A DNA stretch of 64,000 bases from a virus: IMG/VR virus record IMGVR_UViG_3300048809_000043, positions 1 to 64,000 of that record. One strand, given 5' to 3'. Shown piece after piece: positions 5,388-49,777 of the stretch (within the stretch, counting starts at the first letter, position 1; every line of letters starts with the position of its first letter). Under the pieces are notes generated by a model that was not told the DNA's origin, did not search any database, and saw nothing but the letters and a program-made list of their open reading frames with translations. The translations under genes and the position numbers were made by a program.

Positions 5388-6689
5388 ATGGCGACAGTAA
5401 CAGTTCATGATGGAATATCTCGCGGTAATGTTATCCACGAGCAAACATTTACTTTACTAAAGGGTTTACACCCGACTAATAGCGGAAATACTGTTATTAC
5501 TGTGGAAGGCTTTACCTTATATGGCCGTCCAAAAGCAAATATTGAGGTAGAGTCGAGCGCAGATTTTACTGTTTATGGTGAACTTCCATTAGTAACAAAA
5601 ACACCTAAATCAAGCGTGGAGAGAACAGCGAAAAGAACAGCAAGAGCCGAAGCAAAGGAACTGGCGAAGATAAAAAAGATGGCAAGAAAAGGTGAGCAAT
5701 CTGAAAGTAACGGAACTGATTTTGAATTAGAGGTTGCAAAACGGCTTGAGGAAATTACTAAATTTCAAATTACAGGTATGACTAAAAAATTGGATTCAGC
5801 ATCAGAAAGAACGCGCATTCCTATAGATAAAGTATTGACAGATTCCCTTCGACATGTTCTTGCACAAGAAAAATTGAATTCATTTCAAAATAATATTGCT
5901 GGACGAATTAAAATGAATCCTGACTCTCAAGCGAAGATAACAGGAGATGTAAGTGATATTACTCTTATCGTAGATTCTGCTGAGATAAAGCCATCACAAC
6001 TTATAAATGTTTCATTGAAAGTAAATAATAGTGAATTCAAACATCCTTGGTATAGACCCAATACTAATATCTTGAGTATTCTAACTTCTGAGATGTGTAA
6101 TACATCTGTTGACGGAGCAAAAAAAATATCAGATGTGTTTAAGCGTATAGCCAAAAATGGTTATGATTACTGGGAAGGTGAAGGCGAAACTGGTAAAAAA
6201 GGAGATGATTGCTGCCCCATAGCAATAAAGCGCGGATATTACCAAGAGTTGCTTGATATTTTGCGAGATGAGTTGTTACCTATTCAGTGTAATGCCATCG
6301 TAATCAAATCGCTTTTTTATTATGTAATAGGGTCTAAAAGTTATTATCAATTTATCAAAACAAAAAAAGATGACATTACAATCAAGGCGTATAATATCAA
6401 TGATCCTGCATTGAAACAGGTAACAGTAAGTAACATACCTACTTCCATAAATTCTATTAAAATTGAAAATGGAACTCGTGGCGGTCGCGAATTACATATT
6501 AAATTCCCTAATGATGTTGTTTTGATAATCAGGATACACAACGATTCTGACAAAATCAAAACAACTGCAAAAACAGGTAGTGAGATTAAGGGCTTCAAAA
6601 TGGGTATAACATTGAGTGATCCTACTAATCAAATATTTACTCCTATATTGCCAACCAAGATAACAGCATCCAATTTTCAAGGAGAATAA
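5388..6689 (+). CDS. Predicted HaeIII-like restriction endonuclease with phage N-terminal module
   Basis: 433 aa. Residues 1-70 form a beta-rich module nearly the same as the N-terminus of the AAA+ ATPase at 51986 (MATVT, QTFTLLKG, ITVxG, LYGxP, GELP). A basic helical linker follows. From about residue 110 the protein looks like the HaeIII family: GDVSDI (186-191), SLK (209-211), KHP (218-220), YYVIGSKSYYQFI in the middle and IIRIHN near the end. Those acidic and Lys residues fit a PD-(D/E)XK-type site. An M.HaeIII-like methyltransferase follows 8 bp later. The start is ATG 5388, by analogy with the paralogue; GTG 5385 is less likely. The target is probably GGCC or related, but this is inference. 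Confidence 0.72.
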   Translation: MATVTVHDGISRGNVIHEQTFTLLKGLHPTNSGNTVITVEGFTLYGRPKANIEVESSADFTVYGELPLVTKTPKSSVERTAKRTARAEAKELAKIKKMARKGEQSESNGTDFELEVAKRLEEITKFQITGMTKKLDSASERTRIPIDKVLTDSLRHVLAQEKLNSFQNNIAGRIKMNPDSQAKITGDVSDITLIVDSAEIKPSQLINVSLKVNNSEFKHPWYRPNTNILSILTSEMCNTSVDGAKKISDVFKRIAKNGYDYWEGEGETGKKGDDCCPIAIKRGYYQELLDILRDELLPIQCNAIVIKSLFYYVIGSKSYYQFIKTKKDDITIKAYNINDPALKQVTVSNIPTSINSIKIENGTRGGRELHIKFPNDVVLIIRIHNDSDKIKTTAKTGSEIKGFKMGITLSDPTNQIFTPILPTKITASNFQGE

Positions 6690-22726: not shown

Positions 22727-22812
22727 TGGGATGTAGGAAAACTGGAAACCCCATCTGACTCTGAATCAGACGCCGTTAGGCACTGAAGGTTCAACTCCTT
22801 CCATCCCAGCCA
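22727..22812 (+). tRNA. tRNA-Gln(CTG) with long variable arm
   Basis: Acceptor TGGGATG/CATCCCA with U1-A72 and G73 as in Gln tRNAs, CCA encoded. Anticodon loop CTCTGAA (anticodon 22761-22763). T arm GAAGG-TTCAACT-CCTTC. The 14-nt variable region has a GCC/GGC stem, unusual for Gln. Confidence 0.85.
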
Positions 22813-22829
22813 AAAATTTTGAGGTAATT

Positions 22830-22979
22830 ATGTCTGATAAGAAAAAATTAGTTCCTGAGCAATGTCCAAATTGTGGGGCAACTGACAAAAAAGACAAGAA
22901 AAATGGGTGCTGTTATTTTTGGCACGATCTTGTAGATAGTCTCGGTAATGCCATTGGAGAAGCAAAGTTTGGTGAGTAA
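22830..22979 (+). CDS. Small zinc-ribbon-like protein
   Basis: 49 aa. CPNCG near the N-terminus and a CC pair further on suggest metal binding. SD GAGG, between tRNA genes. No family recognised. Confidence 0.5.
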   Translation: MSDKKKLVPEQCPNCGATDKKDKKNGCCYFWHDLVDSLGNAIGEAKFGE

Positions 22980-22980
22980 C

Positions 22981-23139
22981 ATGAAACCAAGCGAAGAATT
23001 AATTACGCTCATGGCAGATTTGGAAATATATCTGAACGATTTAGATTTGCAAATCGCAGATGTTCAAGAAAAAAGATTAGCCGCTGTAAAAAGTTTAGAA
23101 ACATTGAAAAATTTAATGCTTGAAGACACAGAAATTTAG
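22981..23139 (+). CDS. Small coiled-coil protein
   Basis: 52 aa, nearly all helical (LITLMADLEIYLNDLDLQI, then LAAVKSLETLKNLM). The start is ATG 22981, directly after the previous stop. Likely a small oligomer or adaptor; unknown. Confidence 0.5.
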   Translation: MKPSEELITLMADLEIYLNDLDLQIADVQEKRLAAVKSLETLKNLMLEDTEI

Positions 23140-23184
23140 TGAGTAAATATGATTCAAATTAGATGGCGTGGTTGGTGAGATTAA

Positions 23185-23259
23185 GCCGTATTCGTATAGT
23201 GGCTATTACTCATTCTCGGTAAGAATGAAACGTGGGTTCAATTCCCTCATGCGGCTCCA
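23185..23259 (+). tRNA. tRNA-Thr(GGT), non-standard position 33
   Basis: Acceptor GCCGTAT/ATGCGGC, CCA encoded. Anticodon arm CATTC-TCGGTAA-GAATG, anticodon GGT at 23218-23220; position 33 is C instead of U. T stem has one T-T mismatch. Confidence 0.7.
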
Positions 23260-23278
23260 TTTTGGAAATTAGGTAAAT

Positions 23279-23443
23279 ATGAATAAGTTAAAAGAAGAAT
23301 TTGAAATAGTAACTCGTGAATATGACGCATTACAAGACTGGCAAAAGAAACTCATAGTAATGGCTGAGTTGAGAAAGCAACAAGTGATCCGTCAAAAATT
23401 TGAACGCAATCATTTACGCGATACCAATAATGATTGGACTTAG
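23279..23443 (+). CDS. Small coiled-coil protein
   Basis: 54 aa, helical and highly charged (LKEEFEIVTREYDALQDWQ, later RKQQVIRQKFERN). It lies between tRNA genes and has a weak SD (TTAGG). Not recognised. Confidence 0.48.
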   Translation: MNKLKEEFEIVTREYDALQDWQKKLIVMAELRKQQVIRQKFERNHLRDTNNDWT

Positions 23444-23452
23444 ATTTTAAAT

Positions 23453-23535
23453 GCTACGGTGGCACAGCGGCGACTGCACCTGTTTTGTAAGCAGGAATAT
23501 AAACACCGGGGGTTCGATTCCCTTCCGTAGCTCCA
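23453..23535 (+). tRNA. tRNA-Thr(TGT)
   Basis: Acceptor GCTACGG/CCGTAGC, CCA encoded. Anticodon arm CCTGT-TTTGTAA-GCAGG, anticodon 23486-23488 TGT. Extended 12-nt variable region. Confidence 0.85.
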
Positions 23536-23541
23536 AATTTT

Positions 23542-23624
23542 GCTACAGTGGTCCAGCGGCGACGACAGCAGTTCCGTAAACTGCCATACAAACATCGGGG
23601 GTTCGATTCCCTTCTGTAGCTCCA
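23542..23624 (+). tRNA. tRNA-Thr(CGT), non-standard position 33
   Basis: Acceptor GCTACAG/CTGTAGC, CCA encoded. Anticodon arm GCAGT-TCCGTAA-ACTGC, anticodon 23575-23577 CGT; position 33 is C. Very similar to the preceding tRNA, so probably a duplication. Confidence 0.78.
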
Positions 23625-32220: not shown

Positions 32221-32314
32221 AGCCCTATAGTTTAACGGCAGAACAGCGGCCTTATAACCCGTATTAGCATTAGATAGATGCATTGTCTCAGTTCGAATCT
32301 GAGTGGGGCTACCA
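32221..32314 (+). tRNA. tRNA-Ile(TAT)-like with large variable arm
   Basis: Acceptor AGCCCTA/TGGGGCT, CCA encoded, T arm CTCAG-TTCGAAT-CTGAG. The anticodon loop reads CTTATAA, anticodon TAT at 32253-32255; the stem has a C-C mismatch. The 94-nt length comes from a variable arm with GCAT/ATGC stem, as in class II tRNAs. Isotype is uncertain. Confidence 0.65.
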
Positions 32315-32332
32315 AAAATAAGAAAGGTTGTT

Positions 32333-32545
32333 ATGAAGGGTTATTTAACAATATTATTTGCTATTGGAGCAGTCATTAATAGTTTTGTACTGGCGTGGCT
32401 TAGTTCAATGCATAATGTGTGGTTTGCTACTTGGTGGTATAATACAGCATTAGGTTGGGTGGGATTTTTAACATTTACTTGTGGAACTACTGCTATTATC
32501 CGATTTTTAATGTGGCTTGATCCTATGATGTGTGATGATAAATAA
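32333..32545 (+). CDS. Two-pass membrane protein
   Basis: 70 aa with two helices (LTILFAIGAVINSFVLAWL and ALGWVGFLTFTCGTTAII). SD AGAAAGG. Between tRNA genes. Unknown. Confidence 0.58.
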   Translation: MKGYLTILFAIGAVINSFVLAWLSSMHNVWFATWWYNTALGWVGFLTFTCGTTAIIRFLMWLDPMMCDDK

Positions 32546-32553
32546 TTATATGT

Positions 32554-32628
32554 GGGCGTGTCGTCCAACGGATAGGACCACAATCTTCTAAATTGAAAAT
32601 GCAGGTTCGATTCCTGCCATGCCTACCA
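32554..32628 (+). tRNA. tRNA-Arg(TCT)
   Basis: Acceptor GGGCGTG/CATGCCT with wobble pairs, CCA encoded. Anticodon loop CTTCTAA, anticodon 32587-32589 TCT. T arm GCAGG-TTCGATT-CCTGC. Reads AGA, common in AT-rich phages. Confidence 0.87.
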
Positions 32629-32630
32629 AA

Positions 32631-32651
32631 TTAGCTCCATTAGCTCCATTA
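32631..32651 (+). repeat. Tandem 9-bp duplication at tRNA 5' end
   Basis: TTAGCTCCA occurs at 32631-32639 and 32640-32648; the second copy forms the acceptor start of the tRNA at 32643. Confidence 0.8.
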
Positions 32652-32717
32652 GTTCAACGGATAGAACACTGGTCTTCGGAACCAGCTATGAGGGTTCAAA
32701 TCCTTCATGGAGTACCA
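32643..32717 (+). tRNA. tRNA-Arg(TCG)
   Basis: Acceptor GCTCCAT/ATGGAGT, CCA encoded. Anticodon arm CTGGT-CTTCGGA-ACCAG, anticodon 32676-32678 TCG. Its 3' half is overlapped by the minus-strand homing gene. Confidence 0.88.
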
Positions 32718-35326: not shown

Positions 35327-36562
35327 ATGACCAAAAATAATATACAATGTGCTTTTTGCAACAAGAGTAGAGATGAAAGTCTCAAAATGGTTGTTAGTGG
35401 AAGTTTTTCCATATGCGATAAGTGTGTATTTCTTTTTAACGATCTTCTCAAAAACACACCAGAAGCAACTACTGCAATAATTCCTGAGAAAAAACATTTA
35501 GCCGAACAGCTAGACAGCATAAAGATTCGTAAATTCATTGATCAATATGTGATTGGACAAGAGCCAGCAAAGATGGCCCTTTGTGTTAGTGTAGTCAATC
35601 ATTATAAGAGAATGTTGTTTGGTCAGGATAATGATAGTCTCAATAAAAGCAATCTACTGATTATGGGGCCGAGTGGCAGTGGTAAGAGTTTGTTAGTTAG
35701 CACGATTGCTAAGTTTTTAGATGTTCCATTCATTTCTGTTGATGCCACAACACTCACCGAAGCAGGATATATAGGCCAAAACGTTGATACAATCATTATG
35801 AGAATGTTGACAGAAGCAAATGGTGATATTGACGCTGTGGAAAATGGTATTGTATTTTTGGATGAAGTTGACAAGATTGCTTCAACAAAGAATAGAGTGT
35901 CAACAACCGATTCTAAAGTTGCTGGAGTTCAATCAGCATTATTGAAAATGGTTGAAGGAACAATAGTTCCTATTGGTTCTGGATTGGATTTCAAAAGAGC
36001 AAAGCCTATTGAAGTTGATACATCCAATATTCTTTTCATATGTGGTGGATCGTTCAATGGACTAAATGAAATAGCGGCGGCAAGACTCAAGAAGAAGAAA
36101 GGTCTTGGTTTTTCAGATGTAGCTCCCATGATTCAAAATATTGAGTCTGAATATGCTACAGAAGATTTTATTGAATTTGGTTTGATTCCTGAATTTGTGG
36201 GGCGTTTTCCTATCAAGACATTTACCAAAGAACTTACTGAAGAAGAATTGGTTTGCGTTTTGAAAAATGACAAAAACAATATTTTGTCCGAATACAAATT
36301 CTATTTTGGTGTGGATGATATCGAATTAGAATTTACAGAAGGTTTTTTGGAAAAGGTTGCTCATAAAACCAAATTTGAGAAATCTGGTGTACGTGGTCTT
36401 CGTTCCCTGTGCGACAATATCATGTTATCCCATTTATATTTGATACCAGAATATAAAAAGAGGAATGTAACCAAAGTAACATTTGATGGCGATTGCATAG
36501 ACAAAAACCAAATACCAAAAATTGAGATTATTGAAAAAAAGCTTGACAAGAGAGCCAAATAA
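35327..36562 (+). CDS. clpX: ClpX ATPase
   Basis: 411 aa AAA+ unfoldase that feeds tagged proteins to ClpP. It has an N-terminal zinc domain (C8, C11, C30, C33), Walker A GPSGSGKS (114-121), pore loop GYIG (147-150, host form GYVG), Walker B IVFLDE (175-180), the ClpP-docking tripeptide LGF (260-262, equal to IGF) and FGLIPEFVGRFPI. So it should still dock host ClpP. No clpP in this window. Next is clpS behind its own promoter. Confidence 0.95.
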   Translation: MTKNNIQCAFCNKSRDESLKMVVSGSFSICDKCVFLFNDLLKNTPEATTAIIPEKKHLAEQLDSIKIRKFIDQYVIGQEPAKMALCVSVVNHYKRMLFGQDNDSLNKSNLLIMGPSGSGKSLLVSTIAKFLDVPFISVDATTLTEAGYIGQNVDTIIMRMLTEANGDIDAVENGIVFLDEVDKIASTKNRVSTTDSKVAGVQSALLKMVEGTIVPIGSGLDFKRAKPIEVDTSNILFICGGSFNGLNEIAAARLKKKKGLGFSDVAPMIQNIESEYATEDFIEFGLIPEFVGRFPIKTFTKELTEEELVCVLKNDKNNILSEYKFYFGVDDIELEFTEGFLEKVAHKTKFEKSGVRGLRSLCDNIMLSHLYLIPEYKKRNVTKVTFDGDCIDKNQIPKIEIIEKKLDKRAK

Positions 36563-46079: not shown

Positions 46080-46277
46080 ATGTTTGATAAAGAAGTAAAA
46101 GTTGGCGATACGATTTTATTGCAAGGTGATAACGGAGTGGTAGAAGCTAAAATTCTTAAATGTTCTGCTAATTACAAAGCAGTATTAGTAAGATTTGTAG
46201 CAAAGGGATTTTTTGCCCGTCCACAAACCGATATATGGAAAGAAACTTGCTATATACTTGATTTAGTAAAAGATTGA
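46080..46277 (+). CDS. SH3-like small protein
   Basis: 65 aa. Opens FDKEVKVGDTILLQGDNGVVEAKILK, typical of the small barrel family. Stop abuts the stop of the convergent LAGLIDADG gene. Confidence 0.6.
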   Translation: MFDKEVKVGDTILLQGDNGVVEAKILKCSANYKAVLVRFVAKGFFARPQTDIWKETCYILDLVKD

Positions 46278-46673
46278 CTATAGAGAAAAGAACTGATTTT
46301 CAAAAGTAAATTTTTCTTGAATTTGTTGAGGATTGTATCGTCCATTTCTTAGCGTAACTTTTTTGTATTCGGCAAGTATTAATTCTGCCCTACGTTTCTT
46401 TTTTGGTTCTAATAAAAATGGAGTAATTTGTTCTAAGCAAGATATGGCAGCATCATAATGAAGTTTCCAAGACCATGATGGTTTGTGATGTTTCTTGTAA
46501 ATTTTATGTGAACTAATAGAACCACCAAAAGTGGTTTTCATAAATTGTAATAGTTCGTAAGTAGTATTTGATATTTCAATAACTGGGTGACGAAAGGTTT
46601 CGTTTTTGTTTGCTTTTAAAAGCGAAATACTTCCCTCACCATCAATTAAACCAGCAGCGTAAGCATTTTTCAT
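46278..46673 (-). CDS. LAGLIDADG homing endonuclease
   Basis: 131 aa with one LAGLIDADG motif (YAAGLIDGEGSISLLKA), so it should act as a homodimer cutting a near-palindromic site. A basic C-terminal helix follows. It sits on the minus strand just upstream of the tmRNA; tmRNA genes are known targets of integrating elements, so it may recognise that region. SD GGAGAAC; late-type boxes upstream on the minus strand. No intron is evident around it. Confidence 0.9.
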   Translation of the reverse strand: MKNAYAAGLIDGEGSISLLKANKNETFRHPVIEISNTTYELLQFMKTTFGGSISSHKIYKKHHKPSWSWKLHYDAAISCLEQITPFLLEPKKKRRAELILAEYKKVTLRNGRYNPQQIQEKFTFENQFFSL

Positions 46674-46734: not shown

Positions 46735-47076
46735 AAGCTTAACAGTCGAAAGACTGAAACGCTCGTGAAAGGAGACAACCTCTATATATATTCGGACGTG
46801 ACTAGCATTATGTCACCGGATCCACCAAATTTTTGATTTATGTTTAGACACGAATTGTCTATACGGGTCCGACAAGATTCGACGGGTATATAAACGGGAA
46901 GTTACGAGCCAGGTTGTGGTACTCGCCCCTGTAAAAAGGAGAGAACTATTTATAATCGCTAACTCTGTTAACGATGGCACGGAAGTTTACACACACAGTG
47001 TAAAAATCCGTGTGCCAGTAATGGCGTAAGCCAGTACTCCGCAGCGTGGCCCCGACTGTGTAAAAGAAACGGGGCA
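46735..47076 (+). ncRNA. ssrA: Circularly permuted tmRNA
   Basis: Acts as tRNA and mRNA to rescue stalled ribosomes and tag proteins for Clp proteases. The acceptor piece comes first: GAAA-capped hairpin (46743-46756), a GTGAC/GTCAC arm, then CGGATCC-A-CCA (46817-46827). After a 37-nt spacer, the coding piece begins GGGTCCG (46865-46871), which pairs with CGGATCC, followed by GATTCGACGGG (46876-46886), the tmRNA signature. PK1 is CGAG/CTCG with CAGG/CCTG (46905-46931). The tag begins at GCT 46958 (ANSVNDGTEVYTHSVKIRVPVMA), with the stop TAA (47027) in the loop of hairpin TGGC-GTAA-GCCA. A GCCCCG/CGGGGC hairpin ends it. The T loop is atypical, and much of the tag lies in a hairpin. Ends are approximate. 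Confidence 0.82.
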
Positions 47077-49682: not shown

Positions 49683-49720
49683 AACTCCACGGCTGTAGAT
49701 TACAAAAGTGGAAGAATAAT

Positions 49721-49746
49721 ATTACTATGGTAAATTACTATGGTAA
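49721..49746 (+). repeat. 13-bp tandem repeat
   Basis: ATTACTATGGTAA occurs twice in a row (49721-49733, 49734-49746). Confidence 0.85.
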
Positions 49747-49748
49747 TG

Positions 49749-49777
49749 TTGTTTTTCTACTTTTTGTATGTTACACT
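49749..49777 (+). promoter_or_regulatory. Weak sigma70-like promoter
   Basis: TTGTTT, 17 nt, TACACT, like the promoter at 20038. Confidence 0.5.

Follow-up and report, generated by a model that had tools for sequence, protein, structure and literature searches.

A circularly permuted tmRNA gene with a non-Ala-Ala tag, and its putative link to an altered ClpX, in a probable jumbo-phage genome fragment

The stretch of DNA analyzed here (the window) comprises 64 kb of a 70,166-bp virus record and carries phage genes that include a DnaB-like helicase, a primase, a T4-type RNA ligase, a ribonucleotide reductase and tRNAs. Its DnaB matches those of the jumbo phages Sinorhizobium Phosso, Agrobacterium Atu_ph07 and Pseudomonas PA5oct at 44–46%, indicating distant kinship, and those of two uncultivated contigs, G001 (359,890 bp) and G002 (64,932 bp), at 74–80%, indicating close kinship. 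Given this kinship, the record is probably a fragment of a jumbo-phage genome. A megablast of 14 kb and a blastn search with the tmRNA described below, both against 50,697 phage records, returned no match. The features of the window, with pairings in PK1 and in the last two hairpins read from the sequence, are as follows.

22727–23624: tRNA cluster (Gln and three Thr)
32221–32717: tRNA cluster (Ile and two Arg)
35327–36562, plus strand: ClpX homologue of 411 aa with altered ssrA-tag-contact loops, putative partner of the tag
46743–46756, plus strand: 5' hairpin CAGTC-GAAA-GACTG near the start of the acceptor piece, in a place shared by G002, G001 and L111
46780–46792, plus strand: AU-rich 3' strand of P2, with its partner at about 46885–46893, from the RF04321 and alpha_tmRNA alignments
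46798–46816, plus strand: T arm with a 5-bp stem GTGAC/GTCAC and a 9-nt loop TAGCATTAT; the stems covary and the loop class is shared
46817–46827, plus strand: 3' acceptor strand CGGATCC, discriminator A and encoded CCA, where the acceptor piece ends
46828–46864, plus strand: 37-nt intervening segment, predicted to be excised
46865–46871, plus strand: 5' acceptor strand GGGTCCG, with G3-U70, where the coding piece begins
46872–46886, plus strand: D-arm-like segment ACAAGA-TTCGACGGG
46905–46931, plus strand: candidate PK1 pseudoknot, CGAG/CTCG with CAGG/CCTG
46958–47029, plus strand: tag frame of 23 codons plus TAA, ANSVNDGTEVYTHSVKIRVPVMA, with resume signal TATAATC-GCT
46977–47013, plus strand: long hairpin within the tag frame (z = -3.2 against dinucleotide shuffles)
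47023–47032, plus strand: P5-like hairpin GGC-GTAA-GCC with the stop codon in its loop
47050–47074, plus strand: 3'-terminal hairpin CCCCG...CGGGG

The permuted (two-piece) tmRNA gene occupies 46743–47074 on the plus strand. In a cmscan search, the Rfam model RF04321 (tmRNA_permuted) matched 46761–47029(+) over its full length (1–213) at 48.6 bits, only just above the curated cut-off of 47 bits, with E = 3.6e-7 in a 14-kb scan and 4.4e-10 for the 70-kb record; alpha_tmRNA (RF01849) gave a partial match at the same locus (E = 4e-7). A preliminary description had proposed a permuted two-piece phage tmRNA at this position and named an Rfam covariance search as a means of checking it, and the identification is now borne out because that search succeeded and because orthologues lie at the same locus in related phages.

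The CCA-bearing 3' acceptor strand stands ahead of the 5' strand, an order of parts that rules out a one-piece tmRNA, and the two strands form 7 bp across the 37-nt spacer, exactly where they had been placed. The single G-U of this stem, listed earlier simply as one G-U, is present and is no imperfection; it is the functional pair 3-70, and U-G stands at that column in 14 of 14 aligned phage homologues. G3-U70 is the alanine identity pair recognized by alanyl-tRNA synthetase. Within the spacer is a small hairpin, AGAC...GTCT, that is present in G002 too, and TTCGACGGG (46878–46886) follows the 5' acceptor strand, as is conserved in permuted tmRNA. The hairpin at the 5' end reads AGTC-GAAA-GACT in G002, GGACT-GAAA-AGTCC in G001 and GGCC-GCAA-GGTC in L111, so that the letters of the stem vary while the pairing and the GNRA loop are kept. 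The resume codon GCT lies at 46958, and the stop codon TAA (47027–47029) falls inside the loop of the P5-like hairpin, in agreement with the earlier reading of the tag frame.

The T loop had been described as departing from the TTCRANT consensus, and the departure is greater than was claimed, since the 9-nt loop TAGCATTAT defines a subclass shared among phages. In an alternative reading, a U.U mismatch closes a 7-nt loop, AGCAUUA, that is near the GGCRGUA loop of alphaproteobacteria. A pattern scan located the 9-nt class in 12 other phage tmRNAs, in which the loop is mostly identical to that of the window, the stems differ and the acceptors are of 7 bp; no instance of the pattern turned up in 398 Pseudomonadota or 385 Alphaproteobacteria genomes (overlapping samples, roughly 750 in total). 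RF04321 detected each scanned member of the class, and ARAGORN called none of the 11 given to it, which include those of the window and G002; the window tmRNA was probably missed because of its 9-nt T loop. The class implies that phage tmRNAs have been undercounted in surveys based on ARAGORN. A first DNA pattern, built on the window's own acceptor stem, produced chance matches only, none of them coinciding with a tRNA, a tmRNA or an Rfam family.

Across 14 phage sequences, 100% of the cells in the T and acceptor stems are paired, with double changes in 9 of the 12 pairs, and their covariation score of 0.639 compares with 0.132 for shuffles (0 of 500) and 0.03–0.14 for slid structures. Orthologues score above the RF04321 cut-off in G001 (87.1 bits), G002 (63.0 bits) and L111 (76.6 bits). 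Two genes upstream of the tmRNA are homologous in the window, G001, G002 and L111, the fourth contig, and one gene downstream is homologous in the window, G002 and L111. At least three relatives therefore carry a syntenic orthologue, the largest of them being a 360-kb contig. Judged from these comparisons, with orthologues in the closest relatives and flanking genes in common, the tmRNA is a vertically kept phage locus and no stray capture.

In the window, the tmRNA is separated from its conserved upstream gene by an ORF at 46080–46277 and by a LAGLIDADG-type homing endonuclease at 46278–46673 on the minus strand (Pfam 23.5 bits, cut-off 23.1), which is absent from the corresponding place in G001, G002 and L111. 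Searching genome contigs for a host tmRNA yielded one real gene, on a Rickettsiales MAG contig belonging to the phage-like ANK group (see below), and two chance matches. An 18.8-bit tmRNA match in PA5oct was likewise set aside as chance; it lies inside a virion structural gene.

The window tag, ANSVNDGTEVYTHSVKIRVPVMA, ends in VPVMA, and the tags of G002 (AANRINGVNEIATYNVVRNQVNVPVLA), G001 (AVNNSGRNAEIATYTVALNRVAVPVA), L111 (ATEGVNGTKIYTYPVKVRELVLA) and G795 (ATSGINGSAKIFTYSVNLRNTELVNA) end in VPVLA, VPVA, ELVLA and ELVNA, respectively. This lineage of tags has a common core, [E/K]-[I/V]-x-T-[Y/H]-x-V, and closes on a hydrophobic ...V-x-A (V-A for G001), and the C-terminal Ala-Ala of the canonical ClpX-type ssrA degron is missing from all five. 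The frame is open in each, at 69 nt in the window and 69, 78, 81 and 78 nt in G002, G001, L111 and G795, and thus differs by whole codons; ARAGORN reads the corresponding frame in the relatives L099, L111 and L265. The earlier claim that the 23-codon tag lies largely within a hairpin and ends in VPVMA holds, and G002, G001, L111 and the ANK-group tmRNAs have similar hairpins within their tag frames, G795 a weaker one. A test of peptide-level selection on the tag, window against L111, revealed no excess over DNA similarity (p = 0.19) and did not separate selection on the peptide from selection on the RNA.

A phage ClpX gene, overlooked in the preliminary description, precedes the tmRNA by 10 kb; in G000, G001 and G002 alike, the two genes share a strand and are about 10–11 kb apart, with ClpX upstream. 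The window protein matches Pfam zf-C4_ClpX (34 bits) and AAA_2 (95.7 bits) and a ClpX structure in the PDB (E = 8e-94). It shares with E. coli ClpX (PMC7652416; 8e91_A) the Zn domain, the Walker A and B motifs of the ATPase, pore-1 (GY-V/I-G) and the ClpP-docking xGF loop (LGF in the window), and differs from it in the sequences of pore-2 and the RKH loop. Pore-2 reads S-TTDSKVAGV, compared to SITRDVSGEGV in E. coli, and the RKH loop reads LDFKR--AK, compared to GGRKHPQQ, so that T, S, F and R stand at the positions of E. coli T199, V202, R228 and H230, with Thr kept at T199. Among 66 other phage ClpX proteins, V202 is present in all 66 and R228 in 63, the remainder having K. ClpX normally reads the C-terminal Ala-Ala of the tag. 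In the E. coli protein, the C terminus of ssrA is contacted by T199, V202, R228 and H230; human ClpX, in which T199 and H230 are altered, leaves ssrA proteins undegraded (PMC7652416).

SmpB was not found in 18 tmRNA-bearing or related records. Because the record is a 70-kb fragment, the SmpB or ClpP of the window phage could lie elsewhere in its genome; G001 has a ClpP-family protein that, by PHROGs, is closest to head-maturation proteases.

A scan for close relatives with the window ClpX alone found nothing, and a search with a three-sequence ClpX alignment recovered relatives, of which we considered the best 80 of 317 matches. Searching records of phage ClpX homologues with RF04321 identified, among the matches listed, 22 phage records in which a tag and a ClpX occur together. 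Where ClpX has the canonical T199/V202/R228, the tag ends in Ala-Ala in 16 of 16 listed records, nearly all of them LAA; one of these, G803, has a tmRNA match of 38.3 bits, which is below the curated cut-off. Where the loops are altered, the tag lacks Ala-Ala in 6 of 6 (the window, G002, G001, G795, and G798 and G843, which have an identical ClpX and the tag ...SNEDVLA). On a ClpX tree built without the loop columns, however, the agreement between tag and loops (22/22) amounts to one change, and a sign test for their coevolution, with 1 independent change, has no power. The agreement consequently carries no statistical weight as repeated coevolution, and is a sharp correlation that matches a prior functional expectation; it suggests, but does not prove, tag–unfoldase coevolution in these phages. 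In G796, which has an altered ClpX, no tmRNA was found in its 196 kb, and RF00023 (standard tmRNA) gave nothing over cut-off in the ClpX phages without a permuted tmRNA.

We consider it very probable that the locus encodes a functional, circularly permuted jumbo-phage tmRNA; the gene architecture, covarying stems, open tag frame and synteny in relatives are apparent at the level of sequence. From these we infer processing, charging and tagging. The precursor RNA would be cut by RNase P at the 5' acceptor strand, and also after CCA, with loss of the 37-nt spacer, leaving two tmRNA pieces held by the acceptor and P2 pairing. Charged with alanine by way of G3-U70, the tmRNA would enter stalled ribosomes with host SmpB, append A plus ANSVNDGTEVYTHSVKIRVPVMA to the stuck protein, and free the ribosome during infection. 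It is conceivable, although we advance it only tentatively, that the tag and the phage ClpX form an orthogonal channel, in which a tag lacking Ala-Ala would be poorly read by host ClpX(P) and would instead be read by ClpP-docked phage ClpX, whose ATPase motifs and docking loop are kept and whose tag-contact residues are changed. If so, this jumbo-phage lineage would control which rescued proteins are destroyed, and a matched pair would represent a natural orthogonal degron–unfoldase system and clearly exemplify how a virus can redirect the protein quality control of its host. Because nature provides a set of phages in which tag and unfoldase co-vary, the question of why phages carry tmRNA becomes directly testable.

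A competing explanation, which we regard as quite plausible though short of probable, is that this is an ordinary phage tmRNA whose tag is cleared by host proteases (ClpXP, ClpAP, Lon or tail-specific), with the altered ClpX doing another job, its loops having changed for the degradation or remodelling of specific phage or host proteins. The last residue of the window tag is still alanine, and, as the mollicutes illustrate, an altered tag can pass to Lon (PMC10873288, citing Gur and Sauer 2008). In Atu_ph07, ClpX and ClpP are present and no tmRNA was found, so a phage ClpX can have other uses. This explanation must nevertheless accommodate the altered ssrA-reading loops in every listed record lacking Ala-Ala and the intact loops in every listed Ala-Ala record. 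It is rather unlikely that the tag is instead a protective or marking label, by which ribosomes are freed and truncated but useful phage proteins are spared host ClpXP. Changes at the penultimate Ala do give a higher KM for E. coli ClpXP (PMC7652416), and the homologous tags of four related phages all lack Ala-Ala, but such a label would leave the ClpX loop changes unexplained, and the hydrophobic ...V-x-A tail is not obviously stabilizing.

The borderline Rfam score, the T loop off consensus and the failure of ARAGORN to call the gene might be expected of a functionless, decaying remnant of a captured host tmRNA. We reject this pseudogene reading as highly improbable, since compensatory changes keep the acceptor and T stems fully paired, the tag frames of five phages are uninterrupted and vary in length by whole codons, and the locus is shared by relatives; the same T loop also occurs in unrelated phage tmRNAs.

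Two-piece tmRNAs in phages have been published previously, with 53 reported in 18,146 phage genomes (PMC9004378), RF04321 and 79 phage tmRNAs described (PMC11915505), and huge phages found to carry tmRNA, detected by ARAGORN, together with SmpB (PMC7162821). The permuted ssrA gene of the preliminary description is real, but as a permuted phage tmRNA alone it is therefore not new. It is a known kind of tmRNA with a new tag class and a new T-loop subclass, and it has a putative specific link to a modified ClpX. In the open-licence literature searched, a partial corpus, we found no report linking phage ClpX to tmRNA or ssrA tags, and the 9-nt T-loop class, the hairpin-borne V-x-A tag family and the co-encoded altered-loop ClpX are unreported there.

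Compared to the RF04321 and RF01849 families, the window gene has the same permuted order, a tRNA-like domain with G3-U70, a candidate PK1 region and a tag after a TAAxx resume signal, but differs in its low score, 9-nt T loop, D-like segment shorter by 1 nt, and 23-codon hairpin-bearing tag with an end that is not Ala-Ala. Like the two-piece tmRNAs of OM43 phage Melnitz and marine myophages (PMC9004378), it is a phage-encoded permuted ssrA; unlike them, it has no glutamine riboswitch that Rfam could find in the window, is accompanied by a phage ClpX, and is not called by ARAGORN, the tool of that survey. The altered tag of Mesoplasma florum, shifted to Lon (PMC10873288), is similar in being read by a different, matched protease, but belongs to a bacterial chromosome and involves Lon and no altered ClpX.

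The distantly related jumbo phages Sinorhizobium AP-J-162 (PMC11242549), whose authors drew no link between the two genes, and Phosso, related by DnaB and ClpX, resemble the window in having tmRNA and ClpX together. In Phosso (PV764938, L014) we identified an unannotated permuted tmRNA at 349596–350198 on the minus strand (113 bits), and a tRNA-Ile(tat) is likewise close to its ClpX. Phosso departs from the window in that its tag, ANDNVSTKVALAA, is canonical, its spacer runs to several hundred nt, its ClpX loops are near-canonical (with RKN in place of RKH) and it encodes a real ClpP (262 bits), indicating that the whole set is possible in a phage with a canonical tag.

Several other observations concern the window or related phage tmRNAs. 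Matches of microRNA models in the window were rejected, as they fall on a long AT-rich hairpin (49699–49770) with scores below cut-off. A phage permuted tmRNA at 5715–6119 of L118 (contig of 44,548 bp) has a 31-aa tag by ARAGORN that ends in ...GEFAPAAMAA. The ANK group (L103, L105–L109, L129, L134, L135 and L115) comprises phage tmRNAs with 22–25-aa tags, ANK(R/K)ALGFADLT...LRLAA, and a tag-borne hairpin, and some members encode a canonical ClpX; the copy in the Rickettsiales MAG (L115) may be a misbinned phage contig. In the related phages L262 (G810), L256 (G822) and L263 (G813), the spacer between the CCA and the 5' acceptor strand of the permuted tmRNA holds a protein-coding frame. Pfam matches neither that of L256 (54 aa) nor that of L263 (68 aa), and that of L262 encodes a DUF2061 membrane protein (Pfam PF09834, 72.6 bits), a protein gene nested within a tmRNA gene.
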